Origin: Desmodesmus armatus
Taxonomy: Eukaryota > Chlorophyta > Chlorophyceae > Sphaeropleales > Scenedesmaceae
Length of the DNA: 64,000 nucleotides
NCBI GenBank assembly: GCA_007449985.2
Contig: VIIQ02000178.1
Location: forward strand, 124,001-188,000
Direction: 5' to 3'
In this document: positions 4,459 through 61,496 of the stretch, one piece after another
Layout of the letters: each line of letters opens with the position of its first letter
How positions within the stretch are numbered: the stretch's first letter is position 1
The notes under the pieces: model-generated
What the model saw: only the letters and a program-made list of their open reading frames with translations
Told to the model about the DNA's origin: nothing
Databases searched by the model: none
Made by a program: the position numbers and the translations under genes

Positions 4459-7089
4459 TCAAGCCTGCGCTGCTTTTGGCACCCCCAGCAGCCCATCCAG
4501 CAAGTCATTCCCCAGGATGTTGTCAGGGTCAAGCCGGGCCCGCTGCGCATTGAAGGCTTCCAATGGGAAGCGAGCCGCTAATGCTTGCCGCATCGCTGCT
4601 AGGCGCTGGGGTTGTGCTGGTGGCTCAATCTTGGCCCAGTGCCAAGTTGCGTTGTATGAGGGCATGAGGCGGTCTTGGACTAGCCCCACATACTCTGCAA
4701 ACCTGCAAGGGATGATACACAATTGAATAAGTGATCAGTTGGGTTGCATTACTGGGTTTGGGGCAAGAGCCAAGTGGGGCGAGGTGAGTTTCAATAGAAT
4801 GGTGAAGCGATGTTGTGAGGGTTCTGAGGGGGGGGGGGTGAGGGTTCTAGTGGGAGCGGGGCGCCAAGCGCTGGGGTTGTGCTGGTGGCTCAATCTTGGC
4901 CCTGTGCCAGGTTGCGTTGTATGAGGGCATGAGGCGGTCCTGGACTAGACCAACATACTCCGCAAACCTGCAAAATGCACAGAGTAACGTTGGCTGAGGC
5001 ATCACGATACAAAACTTGAGTCAAGAAGCTGCAATGCACCCATGCAGTCCCACGCTGTCAAATAGTCCTGGCCATACCTTTGCCCCAAGACATTTCACCC
5101 CTGATGAGTCACCATCCCCCCTAGCACCCTCCCAGCAACTGCAGTTTTTCCAAGAACACTGTACAGTACAGTATTTGGGGGATACAATGCAGTGCGGTTC
5201 CTTGGCAGGAGCCTGAAATGATCTCACTAAGGAGCCGCACTGCATTGTTTTCTCCCAGTGGACCTTCTGTACATGTGGCCAGCCAAGAAGCGTGCCCCCC
5301 CCCCCCCATGCCTCACGTGTTACCAAACTGCAAGAGGTGTACAATGCAGCTGAAACGGAAAGAGGCTGGGCTGTGGAAGGGAAGGGGTAGTTTGTCCTGG
5401 GATATGGCAAGTTCACCGTTCCCCCACCTGTCAGTTATTGCCTGCCGCTGCTGCGGGTCCTCAGTAGGTAGGTACATGATGATGCCCACCAAACCACCCC
5501 CCCCCTCCCCCCCCCCCCCCCCCCCCCCCCTTCAACTGCATCATGTCCAAGAATACGATGCACCTGAAGGGGAAAGGCGCTGGCTTCAGGGGGGGGGGTC
5601 ACTCACCCACCCTCACTCTTCCTGGGACCTAATCTGTGACCCACTCACCTGTCAGTGATGGCCTGTCGTTGCTGTGGATCCTCAGTGGGTAGGTACATAA
5701 TGATGCCCACCCAACTGAACACACTGTCAGCTGGTAGCCTCGCACTGCTGCAGCTGCTGCCTGCTGCTGCTGCTGCCCCTGCAGCCGCCGGGCTCATGGC
5801 ACTGCTGCTGGCAGCAGTCCAGCGCTGCTCTATGGGGGCGGGGGCGGGAACACCTGAAGACTCAATCAGACGCAACAGCTCCTGCATGTAAGTGATGTCC
5901 CTGCAACACAAACATATGATGTGCACACATATTGGCGAAATTGACTCAGATGTTTTGAGTGTGAATGTATACAGGGACGGGAACACCTGATGACTCTATC
6001 AGACGCAGCAGCTCCTGCATGTAAGTGATGTCCATGTGCATGCATGTGTGTAGACACATGGAGTACATTGCACGACAAGTACAGGTGTTGGTGGCTGCAC
6101 TAATGGCAGTGATGCATGGGGGCGGGGGCAGGGACTCCTGAGGACTCTATCAGACGCAGCAGCTCCTGCATGTAAGTGATGTCCATGTGCATGCATGTGT
6201 GTACATTGCATGGCAAGTACAAGTGTTGGTGGCTGCACTAGTGGGAGTGATGCATGGGGCCGGGGGCGGGAACACCTGATGACTCGATCAGCAGCAGTAG
6301 ATAATGCATGTTGCTAATGTCCCTGCAACACATGAAACAAAGATGTGTGCACCTATGAGAGCAACATGTGTGTGGAATCAACATTTTGTGTGTATGCATC
6401 CAGGGTTGATCATTTGATCAGAGTGTCTCACCTTTTGGAGCTTCTCCAGCTGTTTGTGACAGTGCCGTAGCAGCCAGTGAAGGGTGCAGCCCTCCCCCCC
6501 TCCAGAGCACCCTCCCCCTTCCTTTGCTCCCTCCCCTGTTGCCCCAGGCAAAACATGGGACTGCCCCCTCCCCCCCCCCCCCCCCCCCACATTCACTTAT
6601 TAATTGTCTCACATGTTGGGGCTCCTCCAGCTGTTTGCAACGGTGCTGTAGCTGCCTATGGGGAGAACCACCTCCCCCTTTCCCCTCCCAGGCGCCCCCC
6701 CCCCCCTTTTCCCCCCACACCACCACACAGACTCCCCCCTCCCTGCCTCCCCTAACCCCTCCACCCTCCAACACACTCCTCACTGAGTGTCTCACCTGTT
6801 GGGGCTCCTCCAGCTATTTGTGACAGCGCCATAGCTGCCTATGGGTGCAGGGTCCCTCCTCCCCTCCAAGGCCCCCCCCCCCCACACACACATAAACACT
6901 CACCCTCGACTCCCCTCCCCCCGTTGACTGTCTCACCTGTTGTGGCTCCTCCAGCTGTTTGTGACAGTGCCGTAGCTGCCGATGGGGAAAGCCACCTCCA
7001 GCACCCACTGCTGCCCCCCACAGTCAAAGCCCAGGATCTGGTCAGCATAACCCAACCGCTGACCAGCAGACCTGCACAGGTGCACACAT

Positions 7090-7124
<35 letters not shown>

Positions 7125-7295
7125 CAAAAAGTGGGTGCAGGGTTATGTTGCAAGCAGCTATGGGGGATGCAACAGGATCTGGTCAGCATACCCCAACCGC
7201 TGACCAGCAGACCTAGAAGGGGGGCACAGCAACAAAAAGCAGCAAATAGCAGCAGCAGGAACAGCATCAGCAACAGCAGCAGCAGCAGCAGCAGC

Positions 7296-7333
<38 letters not shown>

Positions 7334-9928
7334 AGACATGGTAAGTCCAGGGTTGTGTTGCAAGCAGCTAGGAGAGCGCTATTGGATCACGACAGGGTTT
7401 TCAGACAAGGCCAGAACCATGTCACAGAAACAGTAACAGTAACAGCGGTACCCCAACAACAGGGGCCCTGACCAACAGACCTGAGGGGGAGGGGACACAA
7501 CAGCGTATAGCAATCCTCGCCTCTTGCAGAACTCTGCCTCTGCCCTGTTGACCGCCGCCACCCAGTCTCTGCTGAAGGGGTCCAGCCAGCTTGATCATAG
7601 TAGGCAATGCCATTGGTGCTGGGCGACTGTGTCTCCACCATCCCCTTCCAAACAGGACTGCGCATGAGCTGCAATGGCAGACGCCCCCCCCCCCCCCCCC
7701 AAAACCACCACCACACAACACTTACCTTTTTCAGAATTCTGCCTCCGCCCTGTTCACTGCTGCCACCCAGTCTCTGCTGAGGGGGTCCAGCACCATTGAT
7801 GCGAGGCGACTGTGTCCACATGTGGCCTTTGCCCCCCCAAATATGCATGTGCCACAGCGGTTGTCAGTGGTACAGACAGGACCCCCCCCACAAAATGAAA
7901 CACCCCCCCCCCCCCACCACCACCACCACCACCACACACTTACCTCTTCCAAAACTCTGCTTCTGCCCTGTTGACCGCCGCCACCCAGTCTCTGCTGAGG
8001 GGTCCAGCACCAGCAGTGCATCACGCAACTCAGTGGCACTCAGACCGGCAACGTCTTCTGACGTCAGACCGGCTGACGAGGACAGCAGCAGGGCGCGAAG
8101 GGGTTCCAGACGGTGCGCCTGCTCACTGTGGTGGTTGGAAAAAGGGGGGGGGGGGGAGGTAGCGGCACAGGGAGGAAATGAGGCATGACAAGCAGGTGTC
8201 AGGCAGAGTTGAAAGCAGCAGAAGGGGGCGGGGGCACCAGTCACATCACACAACTCGGTGGCACTCAGGCCGGCAACATCTTCTGACGTTAAACCCGCTG
8301 ATGAGGACAGCAGCAGGGAACGCAGCGCCTGCTCACTGCAGTTGTAAAGCAAGAGGGGGGGGGGAGGGGGCGGGCGGCACGGAGGAAAGAGCGGGATGGC
8401 AAGGAGGTGTGTCAGGCAGAGTAAAAAGCGGCAAGGGGGTCCAGCACCAGCAGTGTATCACGCAACTCAGTAGCACTCAGGCCAGACACGTCATCGGAGC
8501 TTAGGCCGGCTGACGAAGACAGCAGCAGGGAACGCAGGGGCTCCAAACGGTGCGCCAGATCACTGCAGTGATTGGACAGGAGGGGGGGGGGGCACGTAGG
8601 CAGTTTGAGGCATGACAAGAAGGTGTCAGGCAGAGTGGATAGCATCAAGGGGGTCCAGCACCAGCAGCACATCACGCAGCTCGGTGGCACTCAGGCCGGC
8701 AACGTCATCAGAGGTCAGACCAGCCGATGAAGACAGCAGGAGAGAATGAAGGGGCTCCAAACGGTACGCCAGCGCACTGAGATTATGTGCGTTTTGCAAG
8801 GGGGGGGGGCAAGGGGGGGGGGGGGGGGGGGAGGGGGGGGGCAAGGGGGGGGCAAGGGGGGGGGGTGCGAGAGGGGCACGGAGGGAAACTGAGGCATGAC
8901 AAGAAGTGTCAGGCGGAGTGAGAGCATCAAGGGGGTCCAGCACCAGCAATGAATGGCAAGGTGTCAGGCAGAGTAGAAAGCAGCAGGTGACCTTGAGAGC
9001 TTCCGGTGCATCACGCAGCTCAGTGGCGCTCAGGCCAGACACGTCATCGGAGCTTAAACCGTTTCACGAGGACAGCAGCAGGGAACGCAGGGGCTTCAGA
9101 CGGTGCGACAGATCGCTGTGGTGGTTGGACAAGGAGACTCCTGGTAAGAAGGTGTCAGCAAAGTAGGAAGCAGCATGGGACTAAGAAACCTCGCAATGCA
9201 TCACATGCCTCAATAGCGCTCAGGCCAGACACACCCTCACCTGCCACTGACAGCATCCTGCATGACCACGTCTCCATACGCACTCTCTGTTGCTGCCCCC
9301 GCCTCCTGCACCACCCCCTCTTGCAACACACCCTGCTGCTGCTGCTGCTGCTGGGGCAGGGCAGGCACAGCAGGGGCCCCTCAGGGTTCACCTGCAGTTG
9401 CATTGGCAGGTACCGTAAGAGTTACTAAAACTGATATACACCCAAACACGACCCAATGAAGTTTGGCAGCCACATGTACTTCAGGTGTCTGTTGTCACGC
9501 AGCCATGAGGTGTGCTGGCGCGTGTGATAAACAACCCACAGACCTAACCCCACCTGATCCACTACCATACTCTTTGTGTCGCGCAGCCACATATGTGCGA
9601 TCCATGCACGTATTGCATGTGCGTGTTGTCATGCAGCCAGTGAATGTGGTGGTGCATAAGGAAAATGGCCACAACAGAAGACACCTATCAACCCCACCTG
9701 CACCACCACCACGCTGTCTGTGTAGGGCAGCCACATGTATCTCAGGTGTCTGTTGTCACGCAGCCATGAGGCATGGTTGCGGGCGACCTGCTTGGCTGAC
9801 GCAACAAATGTCTTCTCACGCAGCTTCTGCATGGGCACAGCCTGTGCAGCAGCAGCAGCAGCAGCAGCACAAAGGGGGCAAAATCAGCTCGTATTGCTGC
9901 ATGCAGCTTCTGCATGGGGACAGCCTCT

Positions 9929-9981
<53 letters not shown>

Positions 9982-12900
9982 GGCGGAGCAACACTCAATG
10001 GGTGAATTGAGCTCACATTCACGGTTATGTGTTAGAGTGCGCCGACAGTTGCTGGCAATAAGCAAGGGAGCCAGATCACATGTCAGCTGGCAGAGACACT
10101 TGCGGCACCAGCAAAGCACCGAGCCCCCCCCCCCCCCGGCCAGAGACAACACATTTCAACATGAACATGTAGCCTACCCACCTGCCCCCATTCCTTGCCG
10201 TCTCCACATGCAGATGGTAGCTGCACCTCCTCTCCTCCCCCCTCAACCCCCCCCCGCCCCCTCTTACCTTGAGAGTGAGCTCTGTGACCACCCCCAGGCA
10301 GCCAAGCCCCACTTTCGCCAGTGAGAACATGTCTGACCTACCCCCCTGCCCCCCCTCCTTGCCAAGGGCCTCCCCGTACCAGCTAGTAGCTGCACGTTAC
10401 CCCCCCCCCCCCCCCCTTTACCTCTCCCCCTCCCCACTGCACGCAACCCCCCTCCCCCTCCCTCCCCCCCCCCCCCACCACCACACACATACCTTGAGTG
10501 TGAGCTCCGTGACCAACCCCAAGCAGCCCAGCCCCACCTTGGCGCCAGAGACAACACATACAGCCTACCCACCTGCCCCCCTCCTTGCCAAGGGCGTCCC
10601 CGAACCAGCTAGTAGCTGCACGTACCTGCCCCTCCCCCCCTCCCCCCTTCCACTCCCCCTCTCCAATGCACATACCCCCCCCCCCCCCCCCCCCAGGCAG
10701 CCAAGCCCCAATTTGGCCAGTGAGAACATGTCTACCCCCCCCCCCCCCCCCGGGGCCCCCCCGACCCCACCACACAACACACATGTACTCTTTGCCTACC
10801 TCTTTGCCTAACACACACACACATACCTTGAAGGTGAGCTCCGTGACCACCCCCAGGCAGCCTAGCCCCACCTTGGCCTGAGGGAACTTGTAGCCTACCA
10901 ACCTGAGTCCATTCCTTGCCGTCCTCCCCCAAAACTGGTACTACCAGCTAGTAGCTGCACACCCCTTTCTTCCCTCCACCCCCCCCCCCACCTACTTACC
11001 CCTCCACCCCCACCCACCCACCAAAAAATGGTAGCCCCCCCCCCCCCCCCCACACACACACACTCACACATACCTTCAGTGTCAACTCAGTGACTACCCC
11101 CAGGCAGCCAAGCCCCACCTTGGCCTGTGAGAACAGGTCAGGGTCGGTCTCAGCATTCACCTCAACCACACCACCTGATGTGCAGGCAGAGGCAGGGAAA
11201 ATGGAAGGCAGGCAGGCAGGCAGGCAGGCAGAGGAGGGAAAACGGCAGGCAAGCAGGCAGGCAGGCAGAGACAGGCTCAAGCACACAGCCACGCAAGTTG
11301 AAAGGATGCAACAACCTCCTGATTGCTAGTACAACCCTAATGCCTATCATACGATATGCAAAAGTATTGGAGTTGAATACGAAAACACCATGCTGTTGCA
11401 GCCGAAGTAGTACTAAATAAGTTCTAAAGTCTGCGCCGTTCGGCAGCACATACTGCCGATAACAAAGCACCCACCTGCTGGTGTGACCAGTTTGAGTGAG
11501 ACCACCTGCTCATCCACAGGGGGGATGCTGGCACCTGTGCCATGCGCACTGACCTGCAATGTACAAACCACAACAACAGTCAGCTGCCAGTCACTATAAC
11601 AAGTGATGCATAAAGCATAGTGTCGTTCCATGCTTTACTACGGTACTGGCAAGTACCAGCGATGACTCATCGCGACAACAGGCTGCACCAACACCCCCCC
11701 CCCCCCGTCTCATGATGGCAACCTCTCGTCCTCTCTCGTCCTGAACACACAAGCATTGTGTGACACGTCCAATGCGCTCCCTCACTCCCCCAATCACTCC
11801 CCCCCCCCCCCCCCCCCCCGCCACACACACACCCACTTGTGTCAATCCTCCAACCTGCTGCTGCCGTTTGAAAGCAGTATGCCGGCAATCTCGCCGTCGA
11901 CACACAGACATGTTGTCACGCCTGACTGACTGACTCACTCACTCACTCACTCACTCCCCCCCCCCCCCCCCCCACACACACACATGGGATGCAATAGGAC
12001 TGCTTTCATTTGAATCGTGGTGTACTCTAGATGTTGAACCACGCCCTCCACCGCACCTGTGTGAACCCTTCGATCTGCTGCTCGCGGATTGAAGCATAGT
12101 CGTGCAGGCTGAGTCCGTAGGGCTTGATGGCGTCAGCAACACCCACTCAACCAAAGTCACTCACTCCCTCACTGACTAATTGCATCAGCCCGGCTGCCCG
12201 CCCACCCCCAGCCTGCATGACCCACCCCCCCCCCCTTTCCGGCCACACCTGTGTGAACCCTCCGATCTGCTGCTCCCGTATTGAAGCATAGTTCTGCAGG
12301 CTGAGGCCGTATGGCTTGAGGGCATCAGCAACCTGCTGCACACGACAACCAGCCTCCACACGCACCTGCACACAACGATAAAACAACAGGCACGAGAATA
12401 ATTTAGGGCTGCCTAAACCCCCAAGGATGTTAGGGTTGACCCATACCACTTCCCCCTCCCCCTCCCCCAACCCCTGCTCACCCCCCCCCCCTGAACCCCC
12501 CCCCCCCCCATTGCCAAAGTGTGACACTGCGTTATCTCTTACCAGCTATTGGTCAGGTGCACCCACAGTATCTTGTCTAGCAGGGCCGTGCTCATCATGC
12601 CATCACCAGTTTACCCCCCCCCCCCCCACACACACACACACACACCTGTCTCCCCCCCCCCCTGGGCTGCCTCGCCCCCCCCCCCCATCATCATCATGAC
12701 ACGTGTTTCCGGCCAGGTTCATTGCGCAAGCAGCAAGCTGCTAGCAGCAGATCGACCTTGGTGCAAGACAAGCAAGACACCACCAGGCGACCAGTGACCT
12801 AGGACACTAGTTAGCCTGTGCCAGTTACGGCCACAACGCAGGCATACAAAAAGCATAAAAGCTCGCCCCCCTCCCCCTCTCCCCCCCCCCCCGGGTGCAG

Positions 12901-15900
12901 GAAACAGTCCCCCCCCCCCCTCACCAGTTGTTGGTCAGGGTCCACCCACAGAATCTTGTCAAGCAGAGCCATGCTCATCATGCCATCACCACTTTACCCC
13001 CTCCACCCCCCCCCCCCTCCAAGACTGCCCGTCCTTGTCTTCCCCCCTATCGCCATCTTCCCACCCCCACACGCCACCCCACCCCGCCCCTCAGGAACAC
13101 ACCCCCCCCCCCCCTTTCAACGCAGTACAACCCCCCCCCCCCGGGTGCAGGAAACAGCCCCCCCCCCCCCCTCACCAGTTGTTGGTCAGGGTCCACCCAC
13201 AGAATCTTGTCAAGCAGAGCCATGCTCATCATGCCATTTCCACTGAAACCTCTCCACCCCCCCCCCCCCTCCAAGACTACCCGTCCTTGTCTCCCCCCCT
13301 GTCGCCCCCACCCCCACACCCCACCCCACCCCGCCCCTCAGGAAACACGCCGCCCCCTCAACGCAGGACCCCCCCCCCTGCAGGAAACAGTCCCCGCCCC
13401 CTCACCAGTTGTTGCTCAGGGTCCACCCACAGAATCTTGTCAAGTAGAGCCATGCTCATCATGCCATCACCACTTTACCCCCTCCCCCCCCCCCAAGACT
13501 GCCCGTCCTTGTCTTCCCCCCTATCGCCATGTTCCCACCCCCACACCCCACCCCACCCCGCCCCTCAGGGAACACCCCCCCCCCCATTCAACGCAGTACA
13601 TCCCCCCCCCCCCCCCCCCCCCCCCCGGGTGCAGGAAACAGTCCCCCCCCCCCCTCACCAGTTGTTGGTCAGGGTCCACCCACAGAATCTTGTCAAGCAG
13701 AGCCATGCTCATCATGCCAATTCCACTGAAAACTCTCCACCCCCCCCCCCCCTCCAAGACTACCCGTCCTTGTCTCCCCCCCTGTCGCCCCCACCCCCAC
13801 ACCCCACCCCACCCCGCCCCTCAGGAAACACGCCGCCCCCTCAACGCAGGACCCCCCCCCCCTGCAGGAAACAGTCCCCGCCCCCTCACCAGTTGTTGCT
13901 CAGGGTCCACCCACAGAATCTTGTCAAGTAGAGCCATGCTCATCATGCCATCACCACTTTACCCCCTCCCCCCCCCCCAAGACTGCCCGTCCTTGTCTTC
14001 CCCCCTATCGCCATGTTCCCACCCCCACACCCCACCCCACCCCGCCCCTCAGGGAACACCCCCCCCCCCCATTCAACGCAGTACATCCCCCCCCCCCCAC
14101 CCCCCCCCCCCCCCGGGTGCAGGAAACAGTCCCCCCCCCCTCACCAGTTGTTGGTCAGGGTCCACCCACAGAATCTTGTCAAGCAGAGCCATGCTCATCA
14201 TGCCAATTCCACTGAAACCTCTCCACCCCCCCCCCCTCCAAGACTACCCGTCCTTGTCTCCCCCCCTGTCGCCCCCACCCCCCACCCCACCCCACCCCGC
14301 CCCTCAGGAAACACGCCGCCCCCTCAACGCAGGACCCCCCCCCCCTGCAGGAAACTCCCCGCCCCCTCACCAGTTGTTGCTCAGGGTCCACCCACAGAAT
14401 CTTGTCAAGTAGAGCCATGCTCATCATGCCATCACCACTTTACCCCCTCCACCCCCCCCCCCCAAGACTGCCCGTCCTTGTCTTCCCCCCTATCGCCATC
14501 TTCCCAACCCCACACCCCACCCCACCCCGCCCCTCAGGGACACCCCCCCCCCCCTTCAACGCAGTACATCCCCCCCCCCCCCCCGGTGCAGGAAACAGTC
14601 CCCCCCCCCCTCACCAGTTGTTGGTCAAGGTCCACCCACAGAATCTTGTCAAGTAGAGCCATGCTCATCATGCCATCACCACTTTACCCCCCCCCCCCTA
14701 CCCCCCCCCCCCCCCCCCGAGACTGTCTTCGCCCCTCCCCCCCCCCCCCCCCTCCTCCCCCAATGCCCCCCACCACCACCACCACCCCCTCACCAGTTGT
14801 TGGTCAGGGTCCACCCACAGTATTTTGTCCAGCAGAGCCATGCTCATCATGCCATCACCACTGAACCCCACACCGTTGGGGCTCAGCCCACTGCCCACCA
14901 CCCGCAGCTTGCGTTTGTGGGCAGCACAGTCTGCCACGATTGCCTCAACATCATCCTGATTCTCTGGCTGGTAGAAGTGCCTGCAAGGAGGGGGGAGAGG
15001 TGTGTTACCAATTGGAATGCATGAAAGGCATGCATGTGTGTCAAGCAGAGGGAGTGCATATACTCATCCATACTCACTAGCATCCGTGTGTGTGTTTGGG
15101 AGGGGGGGGGGGGGCAGGTGTGAGGGGGTTTGACAGCGTAGGGGTTGGGTGGGTTGGGTCAGTGTACCCTCCCCCCTTATTGCCAGCACAGTCGGCCACA
15201 ATGGCCCCAACATCATCCTGATTCTCTGGCTGGTATAAGTGCCTGGGAATCGACGTGTGTGTCTGTGCCGAGGGGGCGACAACGAGTACTGGCGTGTCAG
15301 GGGTCGAGGTGGGTGCAAGGTGTGCATGACACAGGTAGATGAGGTATGTGTACTATCCTGCTGAGCATGGGGCTAGCGGACATTTGAGATTACCCTCACC
15401 AACCCCACACAACCGTTCACCCACCCACAACTAATTCCTCCCCCCCCCCCCCCCCTCACTTTGGCTTGTCGCTGTGTGTAGCCGACCAGTTGACCGCCTC
15501 CTCACCAGAACACCCCCCAATGACGCCCCCCCCCCCCCACACACACACACCACAACTCCCCCCCCCCCACTCACTTTGGCTTGTCGCTGTGTGTAGCCGA
15601 GCAGTTGACCACCGCCTCACCAGAAACACCCCCCAATGACAGCCCCCCCCCCCCCCACCCACCCCCCCACACACACACCTACCTAGTAGGACAGTCTTAG
15701 TGAGCTTGCCTGTACCCAAGTACTCCATCTGTCGACACACCAAACAACTCCCCCCCCCCCCCTCCCGCCACCACCACTCACTTTGGCGTCACGCTGTGTG
15801 TAGCCGACCAGTTGACCACCTCCTCCCCGGCCACAGGCACCTGGCGGGGTGATGTGGCAGTGAAAATTGCCTGGTCATCAGGGTTTAGGAAGCCCCAGGC

Positions 15901-16871
15901 CAAAACACCGGCCATGCTGGCAGGCAGAAGGAAGGCCAGGGCTTTGCCAAAGGCCCGGCGCGCTGGAGGGTCGGGGGCATAGATGTCTCGACCTAGGTGG
16001 CAACGGTGTGAAAAAAGGTGTGACAAGTGTGTGATGATGGTGTGACAAAGGTGTGATCAATGTGTAAGGAATGTGTGATGAAGGTGTGACAGGAGTGAGG
16101 TGGTTGTGCGAGGGTGTGAGGTATGCGTGGTGTAACGGCAGTGTGTGGGTGCAGCTGGTTGTGCACCATGTTGGCATACCAAGGCAGAACATGACTGCAG
16201 GGCATCATCAAACACAAAGAACTGTACAGGAATTCGGTGGCAGCTGATCAAGTGCATTCACCTACGCACTGCAATCAATGAGGGGGGCGGTGGGTGGGGG
16301 TGGGGGGGAGTGCGAGACCACAGCAGCAGCAGTGAAGTCACAGCTGCAAGGTGCAGACTCAAACTTTGTACACCACCCCCCTCTGTGTCAGTACACAGAT
16401 ATTGAAGGATTATCTGATGAAGAAGCAGCAGTCATGCCTGAAGCTGGTGCACTCGACTCTGCTGGCGCAAATCTGCTCTGCTTGCGTGCATTGACGTAAT
16501 AACACATGCAAGGCATGCAAGCAATACTACTAAGAGCACAAAATACAGTCAGATAGTGACTAAAACAGACAGACAGAAAGAATGGAAAAGCCCAGGTTTC
16601 CCCTGTGTGTGGGTAAGGTTCTAGTTCCCATGGCTGCTGTTGCTGACACACAAGGTCCCATGGCTGCTGCTAACACGCAGCTGGCAGCAGGCGCCCCTGC
16701 ACCTTTTGGGAGTTGGCCTGACTGCGCCCCGCTGAACAGACGCACTGCCAGCAACTTCTGTGATCCGAGGGAACGGCCACTTGGGCTGAACCTGCTACTG
16801 CTGCTGCTGGTGCTGCTGCTGTGGATTAGGACGCCAGCCCGGGTGTAAAGCTTCAAAAATTGCCGGGATGC
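4459..16871 (-). CDS. GLDH: L-galactono-1,4-lactone dehydrogenase, mitochondrial (12 exons; start codon unresolved)
   Basis: The last enzyme of plant-type ascorbate synthesis: it oxidises galactonolactone and passes electrons to cytochrome c at the mitochondrial inner membrane. Exons in coding order: 16871-16703, 15992-15782, 14980-14794, 12365-12249, 11553-11475, 11174-11074, 9841-9698, 9391-9241, 8125-7944, 7071-6937, 5900-5649, 4702-4459. Visible: a Ser/Arg-rich presequence; a hydrophobic segment (KALAFLLPASMAGVLAWGF); NWSATH; VGSGLSPNGVGF and REQQIGGFTQ/VSAHGTGA of the VAO-type FAD domain; WLPYTDSVVVVQ; ILGFDCGGQQWV; APIEQRWT; and the C-terminal HWAKIEPP typical of aldonolactone oxidoreductases. 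About 657 residues, against about 610 in Arabidopsis. All splice phases agree if one G is added in each of two G4 runs (exon 8 near 9374, exon 9 at 7999-8002). Otherwise both exons are frameshifted, either by homopolymer errors or by real breaks. The first exon has a good acceptor but no ATG, so an upstream exon is missing. Nearly every junction is flanked by partial copies. Confidence 0.92.
4864..4975 (-). repeat. Upstream copy of GLDH exon 12 start
   Basis: Carries the acceptor and the first part of exon 12 (FAEYVGLVQDRLMPSYNATW, then HRAKIEPP instead of HWAKIEPP) and then diverges into intron. It lies upstream of the true exon at 4702. Confidence 0.85.
5436..5488 (-). repeat. Downstream copy of GLDH exon 11 end
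   Basis: Repeats GIIMYLPTEDPQQRQAIT plus the GTG donor context, without the rest of the exon. Long C-runs (+ strand) at 5293-5305 and 5500-5530 separate the copies. Confidence 0.85.
5980..6330 (-). repeat. Three upstream copies of GLDH exon 11 start
   Basis: Copies near 5980-6040, 6125-6185 and 6275-6325 repeat the acceptor side and the first residues (roughly DITYMQELLRLIESSG). The copy farthest upstream is the most diverged. Confidence 0.8.
6428..6848 (-). repeat. Three downstream copies of GLDH exon 10 end
   Basis: Copies at about 6795-6848, 6610-6665 and 6430-6480 repeat GSYGTVTNSWRS-type sequence followed by the donor GTGAGAC, each separated by poly-C (+ strand). Confidence 0.85.
7087..7490 (-). 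repeat. Upstream copies of GLDH exon 10 start with CAG runs
   Basis: Copy at 7176-7215 reads SAGQRLGYADQIL. A degenerate one lies near 7453-7485. CAG runs at 7090-7122 and 7276-7332 (CTG in the transcript) lie upstream of the acceptor copies. Confidence 0.75.
7525..7798 (-). repeat. Two downstream copies of GLDH exon 9 end
   Basis: Both carry SRDWVAAVNRAEAEF. In the 7727-7798 copy the following Trp codon is TGA, yet the GTAAGT donor remains. In the 7525-7590 copy Trp is Cys and the donor GGTAAGT has become GGCGAGG. The true exon ends at 7944 with EFWKR. Confidence 0.85.
8232..9128 (-). repeat. Four upstream copies of GLDH exon 9 start
   Basis: Copies at about 8235-8340, 8438-8575, 8652-8780 and 8990-9128 each carry an acceptor and SSSAGL-S/T-DDV-GLSATELRD coding. 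They are separated by long G-runs on the + strand (8145-8156, 8354-8362, 8581-8592, 8801-8868), that is C-runs in the transcript. Most keep an open frame through the conserved part. Confidence 0.88.
9465..9932 (-). repeat. Copies around GLDH exon 7
   Basis: Downstream, degenerate copies of the exon end (LRYMWLPYTDS-type) lie at 9465-9500 and 9560-9645. Upstream, 9890-9932 repeats the exon start (AVPMQKL) after a CTG-rich acceptor region with a (CAG)n run at 9930-9980. Confidence 0.7.
10267..10885 (-). repeat. Three full and one partial downstream copies of GLDH exon 6 end
   Basis: Copies at 10828-10885, 10492-10552 and 10267-10331 repeat AKVGLGCLGVVTELT plus the donor. 10693-10727 is a partial copy without the donor. 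Each unit also repeats an intron block containing CTACCAGCTAGTAGCTGCAC-like sequence and ends in a poly-C (+) tract. Confidence 0.85.
11830..12138 (-). repeat. Downstream copies of GLDH exon 4 end
   Basis: 12050-12138 repeats KPYGLSLHDYASIREQQIEG-like coding with the donor. A much decayed copy lies at about 11830-11890. A short (ACTC)n run at 11925-11956 and poly-C tracts lie beside them. Confidence 0.75.
12540..14690 (-). repeat. Array of nine downstream copies of GLDH exon 3 end
   Basis: The block MMSMALLDKILWVDPDQQL plus donor GTGAGGG recurs near 14615, 14370, 14140, 13890, 13660, 13405, 13175, 12925 and 12545, with the true exon at 14794-14980. The period is about 240 bp, with a higher-order period near 475 bp in which two unit types alternate. 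All units are joined by poly-C (+) tracts. The array alone creates a 505-codon proline-rich frame on the + strand that is not a gene. Confidence 0.92.
15180..15252 (-). repeat. Upstream copy of GLDH exon 3 start
   Basis: Repeats the acceptor and HLYQPENQDDVGAIVADCAG, against HFYQPENQDDVEAIVADCAA in the true exon. Confidence 0.85.
15452..15630 (-). repeat. Two downstream copies of GLDH exon 2 end
   Basis: Copies at 15455-15510 and 15570-15628 read VNWSATHSDKPK followed by a GTGAGTG donor. The true exon reads VNWSATHSVTPK. Confidence 0.85.
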
Positions 16872-18745: not shown

Positions 18746-19258
18746 TTACTGCACGGGGTGCACGTGCTGGTGCACCTCGAAGAGACCCTTGTCAGTGCCC
18801 CAAGGGAAAGTCTCCCTGGTGCGGATGCGCATGTAGGGGTAGGGAGGGATCTCACCCTCGAACTCCTCCTGCATAAGCAACATGCGTCACATCACGTAAG
18901 ACAATACAAACCGGATCGATGATGCAGCACGTTATAACATAAGGCAGGCCTCAGCAGGGCAGCGCCAGAGCGATCACAGGGCACTCCCACAGCAGTAGCA
19001 GTAGGGATGAGCCCCTGTTGCCCAAGGAGCTCTGCTAGGGCCACAACACTTCGAAATGTAAACTGCACGTACCTCGTGGGAGATGAACATATCGTAAACG
19101 AACACTCCGACTGCCAGAGGGGTGACAGTCCAGACCCCGATGGTGTCCACGATGCTGCCCTTGGGCTTACTGGCATCTGCTGCAAGCTGGGCAGCTGTGG
19201 TCATGCTCCTGCGCCCCAGGATGCCGGCACTGGCGAGCACCCTGCGCGCGGCCTGCAT
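18746..19258 (-). CDS. COX6A: Cytochrome c oxidase subunit 6A (VIa), mitochondrial
   Basis: Small nuclear-encoded subunit of respiratory complex IV in the inner mitochondrial membrane. Two exons, 19258-19073 and 18868-18746, join in phase 0 to give 101 residues, a normal length. The ATG at 19258 opens an Arg-rich presequence (MQAARRVLASAGILGRRSM). One membrane helix follows (VTPLAVGVFVYDMF), then the family signature PPYPYMRIRTRETFPWGTDK and GLFEVHQH near the C-terminus. Splice sites are GAG/GTACGT and TATGCAG/GAG. Its single 204-bp intron contains no junction copies, unlike the neighbouring genes. Confidence 0.9.
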
Positions 19259-23090: not shown

Positions 23091-25255
23091 ATGGCGCCAC
23101 AGCCCCTGCAGCCACCCCCAGACAAAATCGTGCTGGTGTTGATAGATGGCGTTGGCGACGTGACCATACCCGCCTTTGGAGACCAGACACCGCTTCAGGT
23201 GGCACATACCCCCAACATGGACTGCATAGCAGGTCAGTCAGTCAGTCCAGGGGTACTAAAGGTACTAAATAAAATCAAATCAACGTTACACCTGTAGCTA
23301 TGAAGCTCAAGAGCTCATGCCAGCCATTTACTGATATCACGGAGATAGCAGAACAAACCAGGTACTAATAGTACTAGTGTTAGTGTATTAGTACCCCTGA
23401 GTCAGTCAGTATTAGTCAGTGCTCGTCACAGTTGCAGTCACAGTTGGAGTTACAAAGAGGCCCCGAGAGGCCCAGTTGACCCACTGCAAGCCCCTTGTGT
23501 AGCAGCCTTCCTGGTGGTGGGGTGGGGGGGGGGATATGGTTGCAGGTGGTGGTGGGGTGTGTGTTGTAGACACAGGGAGTGCGTGTGGGGGGGGGGGGGG
23601 GATATGCTGGGTGCAGGTAGTGGTGGGGCATTGTTGATCGCCTGCCTGCCTGCGCGCCCTTCCCTGTGCCTGCCTGTCTTACTGCAGCTGCTGGTGTGAA
23701 TGGTCTGGTGGATGCTGGTTTTTCTTGGATGCTGTTGAGCCTGCTCACCTGCCCGCCTGCCTGCCTGCCTGCCTGCCGGCCTGCCTGCCTACCTGCCCTT
23801 GCCCGTGTGCCTGTGCTTGTGTGTGCTGCAGCTGCTGGTGTGAATGGTCTGGTGGATGCTGTTGAGCCTGGGCTGGCCTGTGGCAGTGACACATCACACA
23901 TGAACCTACTGGGGTACGACCCACGCAAGTGAGTGAGAGAGGGAGTGAGTAAGAGAATGAGTGAGTGAGTGAGTGAGTGAGTGAGTGAGTGAGTGAGTGA
24001 GTGAGGGAGGGAGGGAGGGACCCACGTAAGTGACTAAGAGAAGGAAAAGATGGGTGGGTAGTAAGGGTATGCATTGTCATTGTGCACAACCCGTGATCAG
24101 CACCCACACCACTCACACGTGTGTGTCCAGAGCATCTTTCTATAGGCAACCCCACTGGCTGTCTATGACCCCTGGTGACATTGCAGTTGAATCCAGCCCC
24201 ACCCCCACCCCCTCTTCCGCGCACATGTGTGTCTAGGGCACGTACTTATTGGCAACCTTCCTCGCCTGCTTGGGCCCAGGTGTTGTGGTGTCAGTGGGGC
24301 TTTAAAGCATCAACACACATGCAGAAAAGCCCCACTGCAACTGCGCTACCTGGGGACAAGCAGGCGAGTGGGGTTGCCTATCAACAGTGGTGACATACTG
24401 CGCTGCTACCCAGGTACTACCGTGACCAGAGTGCCATTGAGTCAATAGGTTCTGGGCTGTCCATGGCCCCTGGTGACATTGCAGTCAATTTCAGCCCCCC
24501 CCCCCCCCCCCCCCCGGGCCTCCGCGCACATGTGAGTCCTGGGTATCAGTCGCCCCGGCAACCACACTCGCATGCTTGTCCCCAATTGTAGTGGCAGTGG
24601 GACTTACTGTATGTACACCCCTCTTTTTGACAATGGTGACATGCTACGCTGCTACCCAGGTACTACCGTGGTCGGGGTGCCTTTGAGTCTATGGGTTCTG
24701 GGCTGTCCATGGCCCCTGGTGACATTGCAGTCAATTTCAGCCCCCCCCCCCTTCCCCGGGAGCCCCCCCCCCCCCCCCCGGGCCTCCACGCACATGTTTG
24801 TCCTGGGTATCAGTCGCCTTGGCAACCACACTCGCATGCTTGTCCCCAGTTGTAGTGGCAGCGTGACTTACTGCATGTACACCCCTCTTTTTGACAATGG
24901 TGACATGCTACGCTGCTACCCAGGTACTACCGTGGTCGGGGTGCCTTTGAGTCAATAGGTTCTGGGCTGTCTATGGCCCCTGGTGATACCGCAGTCTAGT
25001 CCAGCCCCCCCCCCCCCCCCCCCCCCCCCGTTTGTCTGTATGCCTCCTCTCTTAACACACACTTTTATGTCCATGTTTTTGTCGTTATTGCACTCCCTGT
25101 CGACATTGTCTGCTTGTCCCCAGGTACTACCGTGGCCGTGGTGCCTTTGAATCGATGGGCGCTGGGCTGTCCATGGCCCCTGGTGACATTGCCTTCAAAT
25201 CAAACTTTGCCACACTCAACAAGGCCACAGGTGCGTGACGGCTGTTCAACAGCAC

Positions 25256-26033: not shown

Positions 26034-28440
26034 TCTCCACCCTCCACCCCCTGCTGCTTCCCCCGGGCTCCCCCCCCTCAAATCAGGTCTGGTGTTGCCC
26101 TCGTTTCCACAGCACGCTGTTTCTGTCAAGTATGCCACAGAGCACCGCTGTGGTGTTGTGGTCAGGGGGCCGGGCTTGACAGATGCCATTTCAGGCACTG
26201 ACCCATTGAAGGACAACCTGCCCCTGCTCGAGGCTGAACCACTTGATGACACGCCAGAGGTGAGGGGGTTTATCTGTGTTTATCCCCCCCCCCCCCCGCG
26301 TGCGCGGGGGCCAGGGCCTTTCGAGAGGCTGGTGGATTGTTGTCTGTGTGTTGGGGGTGGGTGGGGGCAATAGTGTGTGGGGGGTGGGTGGGGGCAGTTG
26401 GGTGACCCAAATTGTGTTGCTACTGTGTTTCAACATGTTGAACAGTCGGCTCTGGCACACACTTTGTACAAAATGGAAGTGCGCAGAGCACGCCTGCTTG
26501 GCCTTACCATGGGTATTTGACTGACTTTGTTCTGTTTCTTGTGTCCACACTGGTATAGTCGCCTGCCCTCATCTCTGCACACAATAGGTTCCTACATGGC
26601 TGGCACTTGCTGCAATTCTGGTGGTTCTGCCTTTTTTGGTCCACCCGGTGTAGGTGGTGCAAACCACCGCAGGGGAGACAACTTATGAGGTTCACCTGGC
26701 TCGATCCTGGTGGGCAATGCCATTGTTTGGCGAAAATGTCCATGTAACATACTCCCCAAAAAATAATATCCTGCGGGCCGTGGACAGAAGTAATTGCGAA
26801 TTTTGATTGCTGAGGGGCAACGGTGCCCTTGCACAAGCTGCCACTATTCAAGGCAGAGCTTGCACGCTGAAATTTGGGTGTGGCAGGGCAGCAGACTTGG
26901 GTGCCTTGCCGCTACCAAAAAAGAGCCGTCCTCCTATCGCGACTTAGTGGCAGCTGTACAGACATGCAACAGCCAGTGCCTGCTGGTACCTTGTCAGCGC
27001 ATGGCTGCCAGAGCTGCCACAGGTGTTCACTTCTTTTCGCAATTTCAAGTTATAGCGGAGACAGGTTTCGATCCTGTGACCTATGGGTGTCTCAGATGTT
27101 TATGAGCCCATCACGCTTCCACTGCGCTACTCCGCTGATGGATGACAATTAGGGGTTGGCCAGGCTGAGACCCTATTTTGACCGTCTTTTTCTGCCCTGA
27201 AGCGTTGGGTCCCGGGGCTTGCATCGGGTTGGCTGGGTCCTTGAGGCCTCTTTGTAACGAACACTGACTGACTGACTGAAGCGTGAGACATGGTTTGGGT
27301 CTTGGGGCTTGCATTGGGTGGTGGTTGGGTTGTCCTGATTAGGTTGGTGGCGCTTTGAGTTATACAAATCATCATCATCTGTACGGGCGGGGTATGCATG
27401 GGTCCTGGGGCTTGCATTCAATGCGACCCAATGATTGGGTCGGATGGGCCTCTGTTGTCGCAAATGCATTGAGTGTTCACAGACCCCAATGGCAACCGCC
27501 CCTCGCTGCATGTACACACTGACATCACTCACTGCTCCCCCCCCCCTCTGCTCCTGCATGCCTCTGCTCCAGGCCACCCACACCGCTGCTGTTGCGGCTG
27601 CATTGAGTGTTCACAGTACCTAATGACCCCCCCCCCCTTTCCCACATGGTCTGTTGGCAGGCCGCCCACACCGCTGCTGTTGTGAATGAGTTGGGTGTTC
27701 ACAACACCCAATGACAGCCACCCACCTTCCCCGCCCTTCACACATGTTGTTTTTGCAGGCCGCTCACACTGCTGCTGTCGTGTATAGTTGAGCGTTTATA
27801 CTACCGAATGACACCCCCCCCTGTCCCGCCCTCAGTTCCGAACCGAGACAGTGTCTCTACAAGTCCCCTTCTCGCGCAGTTTGTGTCGCTTCCGCGGCTG
27901 GAGTCAGTGCAGAGTAGCTGCTTGCGTGCTCCGTTGTAACATACTTCTAGTGTTCCTGTTTTTCTTCTTCATGTCTGTGCTACAGGCTGCCCACACCGCT
28001 GCTGTTGTGAATGAGTTGAGTGTTGAGATGCCGCGCATCCTTGAGTCCCACCCCATCAATGCTGAGAGGGTGGCTGCAGGGCTGAACCCCGCAAATTGTG
28101 TCCTGCTCAGGGGCTGTGGCAGCAGAATACAGGTGAATGTGTGTTGGGGGGGGGGTGCACATGTGTTTTTGGGGCAGGTCATCAATGCTAAGAGGCTGGC
28201 TGCAAGGCTCAACCCCGCCAACTGTGTGCTGCTGATGGGCTGCGGCAGCAGGACACAGGTGCCTAAGGCGTGCATTGAGTTGGCATTTCAGGGCCGGGGG
28301 GGGGGGGCAACAGGCCCATGCTGGCACAGTGGCCAGTGGCTGATTGCCCTGCACTACAGTAGTACATCATCATGTCTGGGAGCGAGAGTACCTTGGAATT
28401 GTGCTTCACCTAACCATTGCAAGCCCTTGTGTTATCCCAT

Positions 28441-31084: not shown

Positions 31085-31345
31085 CTGACTGGTGGGTGTG
31101 TGGGCATGCTGCCGCTGCTGAGGCAGTTGTGTGTGGGGGGGGGGGTACCTGACTGTTGTAATGTGTGTGTGGGGCTGGTGCCTGACTGGTGTGGTGTGTG
31201 GGGGTGCTGCTGCTGCTGAGGCAGTTTTGTGGGCGGTTTTGTGGGTGGAGCGCCTGACTAGTATAGTGGAGGGGTGCCTGACTGGTGTGGTGTGTGGGGG
31301 TGCTGCCGCTGCTGAGGCAGTTATGTGGGTGGGGCGCCTGTCTGG
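31085..31345 (+). repeat. Copies of the last ~45 bp of apgM downstream of its stop
   Basis: The block GCTGCTGAGGCAGTT with GTGTGGTGTGTGGGGGTGCT-type lead-in and GGGCGCCTGACTGGT-type tail (the C-terminus [12 protein letters not shown] plus stop) recurs at about 31110, 31205 and 31300. This places the same copying process at a terminal exon. Confidence 0.8.
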
Positions 31346-31375
31346 TGACGTTTGCAAGTCAATTAATCAGTCAAT

Positions 31376-58439: not shown

Positions 58440-59250
58440 TCGCTGCCATGCTCCACCCCCGCCCCTCCAAGAGCCCATCCCCCCCCCACCCCACCCCACC
58501 CCCTTTTGAGATGGTCATTGATCACCCCAGCTTGCCAAGTGCTGCCAGGACCCCCAGCGCAACAGCTGCAATGGTGCCCCTGTGGCTCTGCTGCCAATTG
58601 CATCCTGAGGACCGCACAGGGGTACTCCCCTAGAGCCACTGGGCTCGCGTAAGCACGCATAGGGGATGCTGCACTGCCACAGATCGATAGCTGCAGTCCA
58701 CCCCCCCCCCCTCAACAAGGCCACAAATTTTCCCAACAACCCGTTGGACATGGCCATTGATCACCCCAGCTTGCCCAGTGCTGCCAGGACCCCTAGCACA
58801 ATGGTTGCAATGGTGCCCCTGTGGCTCTGCTGCCAATTGCATCCTGAGGACCGCACAGGGGTAATCCCCTAGAGCCACTGGGCTCGCGTAAGCACGCATA
58901 GGGGATGCTGCACTGCCACAGATCGATAGCTGCAGTCCACCCCCCCCCCCTCAACAAGGCCACAAATTTTCCCAACAACCCGTTGGACATGGCCATTGAT
59001 CACCCCAGCTTGCCCAGTGCTGCCAGGACCCCTAGCACAATGGTTGCAATGGTGCCCTTGTGGCTCTGCTGCCAATTGCATCCTGAGGACCGCACAGGGG
59101 TACTCCCCTAGAGCCACTGGCTTCACGTAAGCACGCACAGCCTATGCATCCCGGGGATGCTGCACTGCCACATGTCGATCGCTGCAGTCCACTCCCCCTC
59201 CACAAGGCCACAACTTCCCCCCAAACCCCTTTGAGCCTCATCGGATCGTC
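58440..59250 (-). repeat. ~239-bp tandem repeat carrying copies of the DUF4112 gene end
   Basis: Three or more units, each with ATTGATCACCCCAGCTTGCC (the stop codon and final LGKLG of the DUF4112 gene) and VLAALGKL-like coding, then CTGCTGCCAATTGCATCCTG and CGTAAGCACGCA. Units starting near 58680 and 58919 are almost identical. A block of poly-C lies in each. Confidence 0.88.
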
Positions 59251-59255
59251 ATTGA

Positions 59256-61459
59256 TCACCCCAGCTTGCCCAATGCTGCCAGGACCCCCAGCACAATGGC
59301 TGCAATGGTGCCCACCACCAGCATCATAGGCACGACCACCACCAGGAAGAACAGCCCGATCAGGAAGCAGGTGTCAGACCGCTTGGCCTGCTTGGGGTGC
59401 TCCAAATGCTCCTGCAGCAACTGCATGTTGCGCGTGTTGGCCTGCGCAGCAGCCAGTGCAGCAGTCAGCACAGCACAGCAGTCAGTAATGCAGCCACCTC
59501 AGCAGCAGCAGTATGCGACATGTGTGCGATGAGCAAAAATGTCCATGTAACATACTCCCCCCAAAACTGAATCGAGCCTGGTTTGCTGAACCCCCTGCTG
59601 CACCCCCCTCCCCTGCTCGAAATCCCTGTAGACCCCCCTCTGCTGACCCTGTCTGCTGGACCCCTGACAAACGTCCTGGCCCCACTGCTGACTCCCCTGC
59701 ACCAAACCCTGCACAACCCCCTGTAGACCCCCCCCCTCGGCAGAACCCTCCCTACCTTGAACCCAAAGTCAAAGATGTCACCAACGAAGGGTATGATTCC
59801 TATGCAGCTGCCAGTGGCCTGGTTGGCCACCATGCGAGGCACCAGCCGCCTGCTGACCCTGCCTGCTAAACCCCCTTGTCGAACCCCCTTGCACAAACCC
59901 CTATAGGCCCCTCCATCTGCTGACCCTGCCTGCTGAACCCCCTGCTCAACTTTCTGGCAAACCCCCCTTGCCAAACTCCCCAGCTGAAACCCCTGCACAA
60001 ACCCCTGCAGCCCCCCCCCCCCCCCCCGCCCGCCACAGCCCCCCCCCCCCCCCCCCCCCCCCCCCGGCTGAACGCTTCCTACCTTGAATCCAAAGTCAAG
60101 TCCCCCCCGCCACAGGCCCCCCCCCCGGCTGAACGCTTCCTACCTTGAATCCAAAGTCAAATATGTCGCCGACGAAGGGTATGATCCCTACGCAGCTGTC
60201 AATGGCCTGGTTGGCCACCATGCCAGCCAATCAGGCTATTGCAAACCCTAAACCCTAACCCTAGAACCCTCCCTACCTTGAACCCAAAGTCAAATATGTC
60301 GCCGACAAAGGGAATAATTCCTATGCAGCTGTCAATGGCCTGGTTGGCCATCATCCGCAGCACCAATTGCCGGGGCATGTTGTACTTGAGGGCGCGCGTG
60401 ATGATGTACGTGCCGACCGTCGCACCAGCCATGTCCCCTGCACGCAAGGATGAAAACATACTATGGTTTGGGTTTGATTGGTTTGGTATGGGTATGTGAG
60501 GGGGCTTTTGGGTGGTGGTCTGGACTGAATCTCCACCACCACCACCACCACCACCACCACCACCACCACCACCACCCAAGAAACCAAAATCCTATATCAG
60601 TAAGCGGTGCTCAACCCCCAGCTGCACACCTGCGTAGAGTATGAGCCCCCCACGTGTCAGATCTTGTCAATACTTACAGCAACAAAGCAGTGTATCCGTC
60701 ACCCTCACCCCTCAACCCATCCCCAAACCTCATTCATGGACCCTCCGCTGCACACCTGCGTAGGGTATGAGTCCAATGACTGCGTCCAGCCCAAACTTCT
60801 TGTTGATGATGGGGATGGTCACCGCATTGTCCATCACCTTGCTCAGCAGCTGCACAGCACAGCATAGCACGACACAGCACAGCACAGCACGACATGCTGG
60901 ATGACAGGTGCCAGCATTGCCAGGTGCCAGGTCCACACCACAACCAACTCCAAAGCGAGTGTTGAAGTGCAGCCGCACCACAGTGCGCCAGCGGCTACAC
61001 GCCAACATGCCACCCAATATTTGGCTTGAACCCCTCAGGGTTTTGACATATTCATGCAGCTCACATTTCAGCAGCAGGGATGCCTGATTTCTGAAATTTA
61101 CCGCCATGCTCTGTTGTGCTTGCAGGCCCAGTTGCCGGCACCACACACCAACTGCATGAGATGCACTATGCCTTTGGCCTTGTGACTTCCCAGCTAGTCT
61201 GTGTGTCTGACTCAGCCTGTATGCTGCTTGCTCATATGATCGAATTGACGCACTCAAACTGACACACTCAAAATTTTCAAAAAAAATTCCAAAAAATTTC
61301 GAATATGACCTGTCCCAAACCCTACCTGGACATGTGCCAGTGTCTGCCGCTGCTCTGCTGTGAGGGTGTCCTTCTGAGGTGCCCCTGCCTGCTTGCGCTG
61401 CTTGGCACCACCAGCAGGCTCGCTACGAGAGCGCTGCACATGGTCGGTGCTGCTGCCCA

Positions 61460-61490
<31 letters not shown>

Positions 61491-61496
61491 GCTCAT
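59256..61496 (-). CDS. DUF4112 membrane protein
   Basis: Four exons agree in phase: 61496-61326, 60849-60756, 60437-60277, 59441-59256, giving 203 residues. The ATG at 61496 starts a Gln-rich N-terminus (MSSDQQQ). The DUF4112 core is clear: FGLDAVIGLIPYAGD, then TVGTYIITRALKYNMPRQLV and IDSCIGIIPFVGDIFDFGFK, with KANTRNMQLLQEHLEHP closing the domain. A strong C-terminal hydrophobic segment follows (CFLIGLFFLVVVVPMMLVVG). DUF4112 proteins are membrane proteins of unknown function in bacteria, plants and fungi. Copies of exon 3 end lie at 59755-60225, of exon 2 end at 60620-60650, and of the terminal exon at 58440-59250. Confidence 0.88.
59536..59580. mobile_element. Fragment of the MITE-like element
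   Basis: AAAAATGTCCATGTAACATACTCCCC matches the outer end of the 26520-26765 arm. Confidence 0.55.
59755..60225 (-). repeat. Downstream copies of DUF4112 exon 3 end
   Basis: Copies at 60135-60225 and 59755-59840 repeat GIIPFVGDIFDFGFK with the GTAGG donor. A short one lies near 60076-60100. Separated by poly-C tracts of 17-25 bases (+) at 60009-60065. Confidence 0.88.
60243..60268. repeat. Telomere-type motif at the DUF4112 exon 3 donor
   Basis: AAACCCTAAACCCTAACCCT ends 8 bp before the intron-side copy of CCCTACCTTGAA. In transcript sense it lies just inside the intron. Confidence 0.7.
60538..60578 (+). repeat. (CAC)n microsatellite
   Basis: About 13 CAC units in intron 2 of the DUF4112 gene. 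Confidence 0.9.
60620..60652 (-). repeat. Downstream copy of DUF4112 exon 2 end
   Basis: TGCACACCTGCGTAGAGTATGA (LILYAG plus donor) repeats 60748-60770. Confidence 0.8.

Follow-up and report, generated by a model that had tools for sequence, protein, structure and literature searches.

In a 64,000-nucleotide stretch of the genome of the green alga Desmodesmus armatus (assembly GCA_007449985.2, contig VIIQ02000178.1, positions 124,001 to 188,000; hereafter the window), the introns of the genes GLDH and apgM contain truncated copies of the edges of their own exons. These half-exon copies are real, and in GLDH, apgM and a third gene, HisRS, from another contig (C618, locus L025), we count 60 of them in introns or gene flanks, with 35 in GLDH and 15 in apgM; the roughly 45 copies counted by eye in a first-pass annotation of the window was thus a realistic figure. 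GLDH and apgM were supplied by that annotation and HisRS was chosen as repeat-rich, so figures for the three genes describe a nonrandom set.

Exon models for the three genes were built with our own spliced protein-to-DNA aligner, run with homologous proteins, on an assembly of 115.8 Mb in 831 contigs. Copies were then detected by searching exon edges against their own gene, accepting direct matches only and removing three low-complexity matches. Among named sources, GLDH matches Sphaeropleales best, at 68% (an unnamed protein) and then 67% (Scenedesmus sp. PABB004), and most GLDH exon junctions (minus strand, 15992-4462) are placed identically with four homologues. The GLDH model is uncertain at the 5' exons, the exon 7 acceptor, a few bases of the exon 6 donor and chiefly exon 8, for which the aligner picked different near-identical copies depending on the homologue used. 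We adopted a hand-placed exon 8 (8125-7944), on which the main counts rest; in the assembly this exon (7944-8125) is out of frame, with a one-base difference in a C run relative to its downstream copies, either an assembly indel or a real change. The apgM product is 79% identical to its Tetradesmus obliquus homologue, and the internal junctions of the gene (plus strand, 23088-30923) agree across five homologues except for a 6-bp difference at one donor; the first and last exons vary. The HisRS gene start lies outside the locus; junctions of the middle exons agree with five homologues, save that one homologue splits one exon. The GLDH exons and their copies, all on the minus strand, are as follows.

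15782..15992 (-): GLDH exon 1 of the model; same donor end with 4/4 homologues, start varies, earlier 5' exons unsettled
15621-15556 and 15506-15442 (-): two downstream copies of exon 1 end with donor; exon-edge search
15184..15245 (-): upstream copy of exon 2 start with acceptor; 92% identity
14794..14980 (-): exon 2; spliced alignment, 4/4 homologues
12538..14690 (-): nine-copy array of the last 72-76 bp of exon 2 with donor and intron start; exon-edge search
12249..12365 (-): exon 3; spliced alignment, 4/4 homologues
12140-12051 and 11872-11805 (-): two downstream copies of exon 3 end with donor; exon-edge search
11475..11553 (-): exon 4, by spliced alignment; no copies found by exon-edge search
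11074..11174 (-): exon 5; spliced alignment, 4/4 homologues
10234..10887 (-): four downstream copies of exon 5 end, three across the donor and one internal
9952-9900 (-): acceptor-side match upstream of exon 6; CAG-rich, excluded from the 60 copies
9690..9841 (-): exon 6; 3' end hand-set between aligned ends 9685 and 9693
within 9592-9465 (-): two downstream copies of exon 6, one internal and one with a gapped donor dinucleotide
9241..9379 (-): exon 7; 3/4 homologues, acceptor uncertain
9132-9006, 8779-8650, 8653-8436 and 8439-8244 (-): upstream acceptor-side copies of exon 8, given the adopted exon
8954-8932 (-): inner piece of exon 8, upstream, given the adopted exon
7944..8125 (-): exon 8, re-modelled by hand; placement among near-identical copies unsettled
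7795-7685 (-): downstream copy of exon 8 end; GT present, in-frame stop
7586-7520 (-): downstream copy of exon 8 end; GC at donor
7272-7173 (-): acceptor-side match upstream of exon 9; excluded from the 60 copies
6937..7071 (-): exon 9; spliced alignment, 4/4 homologues
6421..6845 (-): three downstream copies of exon 9 end with donor; exon-edge search
5974..6356 (-): three upstream copies of exon 10 start; AG in one, AT in two
5649..5900 (-): exon 10; spliced alignment
5494-5425 (-): downstream donor copy of exon 10; exon-edge search
4868..4973 (-): upstream copy of the first 100 bp of exon 11 with acceptor; 94% identity
4462..4702 (-): exon 11 (C terminus); acceptor identical with 3/4 homologues

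The exons and copies of apgM, all on the plus strand, are these.

23088-23232 (+): apgM exon 1; start is a hand-chosen ATG
23640-23717 (+): upstream acceptor copy of exon 2; exon-edge search
23832-23928 (+): exon 2; spliced alignment
24157..24986 (+): four upstream copies of exon 3 start, three with acceptor and one internal
25124-25230, 25490-25561 and 26087-26259 (+): exons 3, 4 and 5; junctions identical with 5/5 homologues
27551..27796 (+): three upstream copies of exon 6 start with acceptor; exon-edge search
27986-28132 and 28510-28576 (+): exons 6 and 7; spliced alignment
28180-28261 (+): donor copy of exon 6; exon-edge search
28899..29141 (+): two upstream copies of exon 8 start with acceptor; exon-edge search
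29327-29511 (+): exon 8; spliced alignment
29704-29782 (+): donor copy of exon 8; exon-edge search
30282-30923 (+): exon 9; internal structure differs among alignments
31107..31346 (+): three copies of the last exon's end in the 3' flank, where no splice junction is modelled

The copies are one-sided, as the first-pass annotation had proposed: those downstream of an exon repeat its end and donor, those upstream repeat its start and acceptor, and none of the 60 has both under the adopted models. Twenty-two of the 24 upstream copies reach the acceptor and two are inner pieces, while 33 of the 36 downstream copies reach the exon end (31 at a modelled donor, two at the end of a last exon) and three are inner pieces; the three copies in the apgM 3' flank comprise two that reach the exon end and one inner piece. 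An earlier GLDH model with a 48-bp exon 8 gave 58 copies, 21 upstream (20 with acceptor, one inner) and 37 downstream (32 with donor, three inner, two two-sided). Copies attach to 12 of 20 junctions in GLDH, 6 of 16 in apgM and 7 of 14 in HisRS after low-complexity removal, with CAG-rich matches at two further GLDH acceptors outside the count. Aligning exon edges to their gene, as the annotation had proposed for whole exons, does recover one-sided junction copies, at fewer junctions than its "almost every exon edge" implied. Its statement that AG or GT is always kept likewise applies to most copies without being exact: GT is retained in 29/31 donor copies and AG in 19/22 acceptor copies, together 48/53 dinucleotides.

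Several controls bear on these counts. Each of 27 segments was dinucleotide-shuffled once, which yielded no local direct repeats, and the 27 real segments contain 232 direct local pairs vs 10 inverted. Before filtering, the exon-edge search gave 25 inverted and 16 cross-gene matches, of which 19 and 15, respectively, are low-complexity; a stricter complexity filter kept 43 of the earlier 58 copies against six inverted matches and one cross-gene match. The exon models of all three genes join without using any copy. When a copy's site was put in place of the real one, ignoring gaps and omitting exon 8 and last-exon copies, a stop resulted 45 times out of 47: for donors in all but one of 29 (28, the exception being in frame) and for acceptors in all but one of 18 (17, the exception being a frameshift). 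The suggestion that the copies act as decoys thus holds and, by these models, splice-site choice must be made among look-alikes that would break the protein.

The copies also make up much of the introns in which they lie. Twenty of the 25 introns of GLDH, apgM and HisRS carry them, and once the displacement of the most distant copy on either side is deducted, copies account for 56% of total intron length (with the earlier exon 8, 51% and 19 introns). The lengthened introns are left with a median of 266 bp (mean 337 bp, range 49-1313), introns without copies measure 259-557 bp, and those of two other genes, Rpn11 and eIF6, 205-572 bp. Table 1 of PMC5966456 lists mean introns of 230, 302 and 284 bp for Raphidocelis, Monoraphidium and Chromochloris and 462 bp for Tetradesmus obliquus. 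The copies appear to lengthen existing introns rather than create new ones.

We think it likely that local tandem duplications across exon-intron junctions, filtered by selection, lengthened these introns. A duplicated unit, mostly of about 90-300 bp, would span one junction, and the intron would thereby gain a truncated exon edge with its splice site; some units would later expand into arrays. Such duplications would be tolerated because one intact exon remains beside an edge copy, whereas a two-sided copy could be spliced in and damage the protein. Ancestral introns were probably about 250-300 bp long, and in introns that short a 90-300 bp unit would usually have to overlap an exon. Once in the intron, a copy would decay largely as noncoding DNA and be bypassed by the spliceosome. 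In most multicopy families a single exonic breakpoint is common to the copies within a few bases. The nine units of the GLDH exon 2 array are mostly spaced 226-255 bp apart, retain GT in 9/9 copies and have homologous intron segments with G runs of unstable length; two of them are 99% identical over 219 bp, and this array must therefore have expanded recently. These features fit a tandem origin through slippage or unequal exchange, with the arrays expanding later. Of the local repeat families, 12 of 13 in GLDH touch an exon, the 13th being that of exon 8 (unmodelled at that count), as do 7 of 8 in apgM, one of the seven being a simple-repeat cross-match. Insertion of exon pieces without intron, which a sharp loss of identity at splice sites had brought to mind, was rejected on the homologous intron parts of the exon 2 array.

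Several observations weigh against this account. A random 200-bp unit would touch an exon in just 30-43% of placements in the present-day genes. Introns of 266 bp would offer about 200 junction-touching starts vs 66 intron-only ones, or about 75% exon contact, and a junction-seeking mechanism would therefore be unnecessary, on the assumption that the original introns were shorter. Exonic bases are not enriched in repeats by circular shift (p 0.88 and 0.60), a result that we set aside in favor of the family-level count. Breakpoints vary among copies of GLDH exons 6 and 9 and HisRS exon 7. A gene-model-free test for a donor motif in 20 loci was weak: of 106 pairs, 15 had the motif at the outer end and 5 at the wrong end, and random internal positions gave a mean of 9.4 and a maximum of 16. 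Unexpected, too, is the divergence of the copies. Comparing the nearest copy per family with its exon in 24 of 26 families (two GLDH exon 8 families were excluded for their frame difference), 39 of 876 zerofold sites (4.5%) and 61 of 244 fourfold sites (25%) differ, and the bootstrap interval of the fourfold/zerofold ratio over families is 3.7-8.7. For a copy made in place, zerofold changes would accumulate on one lineage and fourfold changes on at most two, so that duplication in place, with the copy neutral, should give a ratio of at most about 2, a limit that the observed ratio exceeds. The copies also differ from one another disproportionately at third positions, both over all sites (32:27:74 by codon position) and at sites covered by two copies (5:6:18).

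The silent-site excess is present in each gene separately (5.6, 5.1 and 8.7, with the earlier GLDH exon 8), and an earlier tally of 25 families gave 4.4% vs 26% (odds ratio 7.6, p 3.5e-21, with sites within a family non-independent). In the tallies of codon position, base type, CpG, singletons, indels and conserved codons, all made with the earlier 48-bp GLDH exon 8, the third-position excess persists within each base type and outside CpG, and base composition or CpG was accordingly rejected as its source. In multicopy families, the exon differs from all agreeing copies mostly at third positions (5:3:19), while copy-specific singletons (21:18:30) are not clearly codon-phased. Amino acid changes spare conserved codons no more than variable ones (63/490 vs 49/511), the residue commoner in homologues is the exon's at 90 of 96 distinct differences, the copy's being the rarer, and all seven indels in the exon parts of copies are non-multiples of three. 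Within alignable parts, intron sequence inside the alignments differs at 17.8% of sites (74/415), about four times the zerofold value. Given copies without present protein constraint, either the source of the copies was a diverged functional sequence or the exons' silent sites evolve far faster than the sequence around them, and the intron divergence leans toward the former.

A diverged source would refine rather than exclude duplication across junctions, and we regard it as a reasonable possibility, if somewhat short of an even chance. Unequal exchange between alleles, homeologues or a since lost paralogue would have set the exon edge of another version of the gene alongside the resident one, and silent differences would have been present at a copy's birth, with only decay since. 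A fourfold divergence of 25% beside 4.5% at zerofold sites, with no avoidance of conserved codons, points to separation mostly while both versions were functional; the excess in each third-position base type and outside CpG, the barely phased private changes, the third-position differences between exon and agreeing copies, and the high intron divergence agree with this. It would nonetheless need about 20% silent divergence between the exchanging sequences, which is very high for alleles of one species, and C/G-run slippage may have inflated the intron divergence. Moreover, a search of the assembly for homeologous or other second copies of apgM, HisRS or GLDH found none, and all three appear single-copy; a distant second HisRS-type match is present on contig C376.

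We doubt that the copies arose in place and that, since then, silent change in the functional exons has run at several times the rate of the noncoding copies. The 5:3:19 pattern does look as if the exon lineage had changed, but silent sites in exons would need a rate four to five times that of adjacent noncoding DNA, intron divergence of about 9% would be predicted instead of the 17.8% observed, and there is no directional codon shift (53 strong-to-weak vs 51 weak-to-strong).

Less probable again is a mechanism that targets junctions, such as breaks or stalled replication at G runs after some donors, in place of random duplication and selection. In its favor, 19 of 21 repeat families in the two window genes touch an exon, several breakpoints fall at G runs, and segments with more long G/C runs tend to have higher local-repeat cover (rho 0.48, p 0.013, 26 segments). 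However, short ancestral introns alone would produce a similar excess, many breakpoints lie outside G runs, and like duplications occur beyond the last exons of apgM and DUF4112 (a further window gene, below), where no junction is modelled.

That the copies are functional, as alternative half-exons or as regulatory decoy splice sites under selection, is very unlikely. Splice dinucleotides are largely kept, the encoded peptides are near-identical and two of the three tallies among copies are third-position-rich, but retention in 48/53 is about what decay of 4-8% per site would leave. Half-exons in functional use, an idea prompted by the third-position bias, were judged improbable because conserved and variable codons have changed alike, copy residues are rarely found in homologues, singletons are barely phased, exon-part indels break the frame and use of a copy's site nearly always brings a stop; the data leave room for some past constraint on the copies or repeated capture from functional sources. 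An assembly artefact through collapsed or misjoined repeats is scarcely credible. C/G runs and microsatellites are hard to assemble, a CA repeat forms the end of the contig and GLDH exon 8 may contain a C-run indel; yet divergence between copies and exons reaches 20% and is codon-phased, a pattern that misassembly does not produce, the same organization recurs on another contig and copy-free introns are of ordinary length.

Half-exon copying extends beyond the window, itself a hot spot, in a patchy fashion. In six 10-kb segments of the window, 28% of the sequence lies in local direct repeats, vs 7.2% in 20 arbitrary 10-kb loci drawn from contigs already met as search matches (p = 0.0019), and 17%, 0% and 34% in neighboring contig stretches. 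A subtelomeric location was considered and rejected, as no telomere repeat occurs within the last 7.9 kb of the contig. Three repeat-rich loci were inspected further, namely HisRS, a UBP12/USP7-like gene (Pfam USP7 domain) and a gene that we take to be P450-like; half-exon copies were seen by eye in the latter two, and as all three were chosen from repeat-rich samples they provide no estimate of frequency. No copies were found in the six modelled introns of Rpn11 (guide residues 9-251) or the three of eIF6 (guide residues 61-243). A Pfam sweep of limited sensitivity, which does detect two apgM copies as a positive check, gave a candidate copy in at most two of ten contigs with several chaperonin-family matches (clear overlapping matches on C571, a possible overlap on C625). 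The saturation of genes by junction copies that the first-pass annotation described is therefore a property of some genes, with Rpn11, eIF6 and, in the window, COX6A lacking them.

Among the six window genes named in that annotation, GLDH and apgM are borne out by spliced models, and the DUF4112 gene more loosely, by a PF13430 match (E 4e-15) and copies placed without a spliced model. In the putative bZIP-like gene and the two putative coiled-coil genes, the local-repeat search does show local repeats of coding-looking segments. COX6A, placed by eye with a weak Pfam match, has no local repeats of this kind, as the annotation had stated.

60277..60444 (-): DUF4112 exon segment; Pfam PF13430 E 4.4e-15, read by eye
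60221-60131 and 59844-59742 (-): donor-side copies of the DUF4112 exon segment; local-repeat search, by eye
58501..59313 (-): tandem 239-bp copies of the last DUF4112 exon end with 3' flank; by eye
18749..19258 (-): COX6A, two exons placed by eye, in-window control without copies; Pfam match below cut-off

COX6A and GLDH adjoin in the window (4462-19258), and the Scenedesmus sp. PABB004 GLDH record (P0002) starts with COX6A-like sequence when compared by eye, which suggests conserved gene order and a fused gene prediction in that alga. Other local repeats in the window differ in kind, transposon copies and coding minisatellites among them. A 768-bp element present in two direct copies (1344-2110 and 3258-4025; 99.6% identical, each with short inverted ends) is probably a non-autonomous DNA transposon, and positions 39651-40087 form a coding-looking minisatellite with a 75-bp unit and copies 97% identical. 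Two adjoining variable tandem arrays with different units lie at 49780-50634, and local tandem repeats with no evident exon content at 35282-35992 and 32519-32952 (units of about 270 and 230 bp).

The half-exon copies share features with several known systems. Tandem exon duplication with mutually exclusive exons also repeats exon sequence in a neighboring intron, with copies that bear both splice sites and stay coding; unlike these, no algal copy is two-sided under the adopted models (2/58 under the earlier 48-bp GLDH exon 8, whose placement is unsettled). Intronic minisatellites, or variable-number tandem repeats, form expanding arrays in near-constant register. The GLDH exon 2 array, with nine copies and one breakpoint region, resembles them in register and expansion, but the algal unit includes a real exon's edge and splice site, and some other families are single-copy. 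Rogers-type intron gain, listed together with Gao and Lynch (2009), invites a further comparison. As described in passages of PMC4974935, Rogers-type gain (2011) makes an intron by duplicating an exonic segment with AGGT; splice sites are supplied by local duplication in both cases, but the algal unit contains an existing junction, the copied segments run into intron sequence instead of becoming the two ends of a new intron, and the copies apparently go unused. A further relative is the potato RdRp gene, in which one tandem duplication across an intron-exon boundary is reported to have created a new intron (passages of PMC4974935). There too the unit joins the 3' part of an intron to the 5' part of the next exon, and the algal units cross junctions in direct orientation (22/24 upstream to the acceptor, 31/36 downstream to a modelled donor); the potato case as those passages give it is one event in one gene, whereas the algal genes have many copies of both polarities, some in arrays, in introns that have been lengthened. 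Introners (PMC9860276) likewise place repeated sequence with splice sites inside genes but are families dispersed across genes, whereas the algal copies match their own exon, with one complex cross-gene match among the GLDH, apgM and HisRS edges, the only ones compared. Among the papers listed from open-licence literature, judged by title and the opening of the abstract, we found no report of introns lengthened mainly by one-sided junction copies, which is weak evidence given that subscription journals lie mostly outside that search. What is new, as far as our searches reach, is that junction-crossing duplications, a kind of event known singly, have built up into the chief source of intron length in some genes, and that the copies diverge from their exons in a codon-phased way.

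In conclusion, how introns lengthen and how the spliceosome selects one among near-identical sites are long-standing questions. For GLDH, apgM and HisRS the length arithmetic explains intron growth in concrete terms without recourse to transposons. In one GLDH intron the real donor is followed by nine similar ones, the copies, in similar context, and by our model only the first of the ten gives protein; the intron is therefore a natural test of splice-site choice by position and by exon definition. Why apparently useless copies should have diverged in a codon-phased manner is a separate puzzle. Tentatively, these introns may be a fossil record of past alleles, in which unequal exchange between highly diverged functional versions of a gene repeatedly parked exon edges with their splice sites, which have decayed as junk. 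If so, recombination between diverged alleles would be what makes the introns grow, and allelic diversity lost from the sequenced strain would live on in the copies' silent differences.

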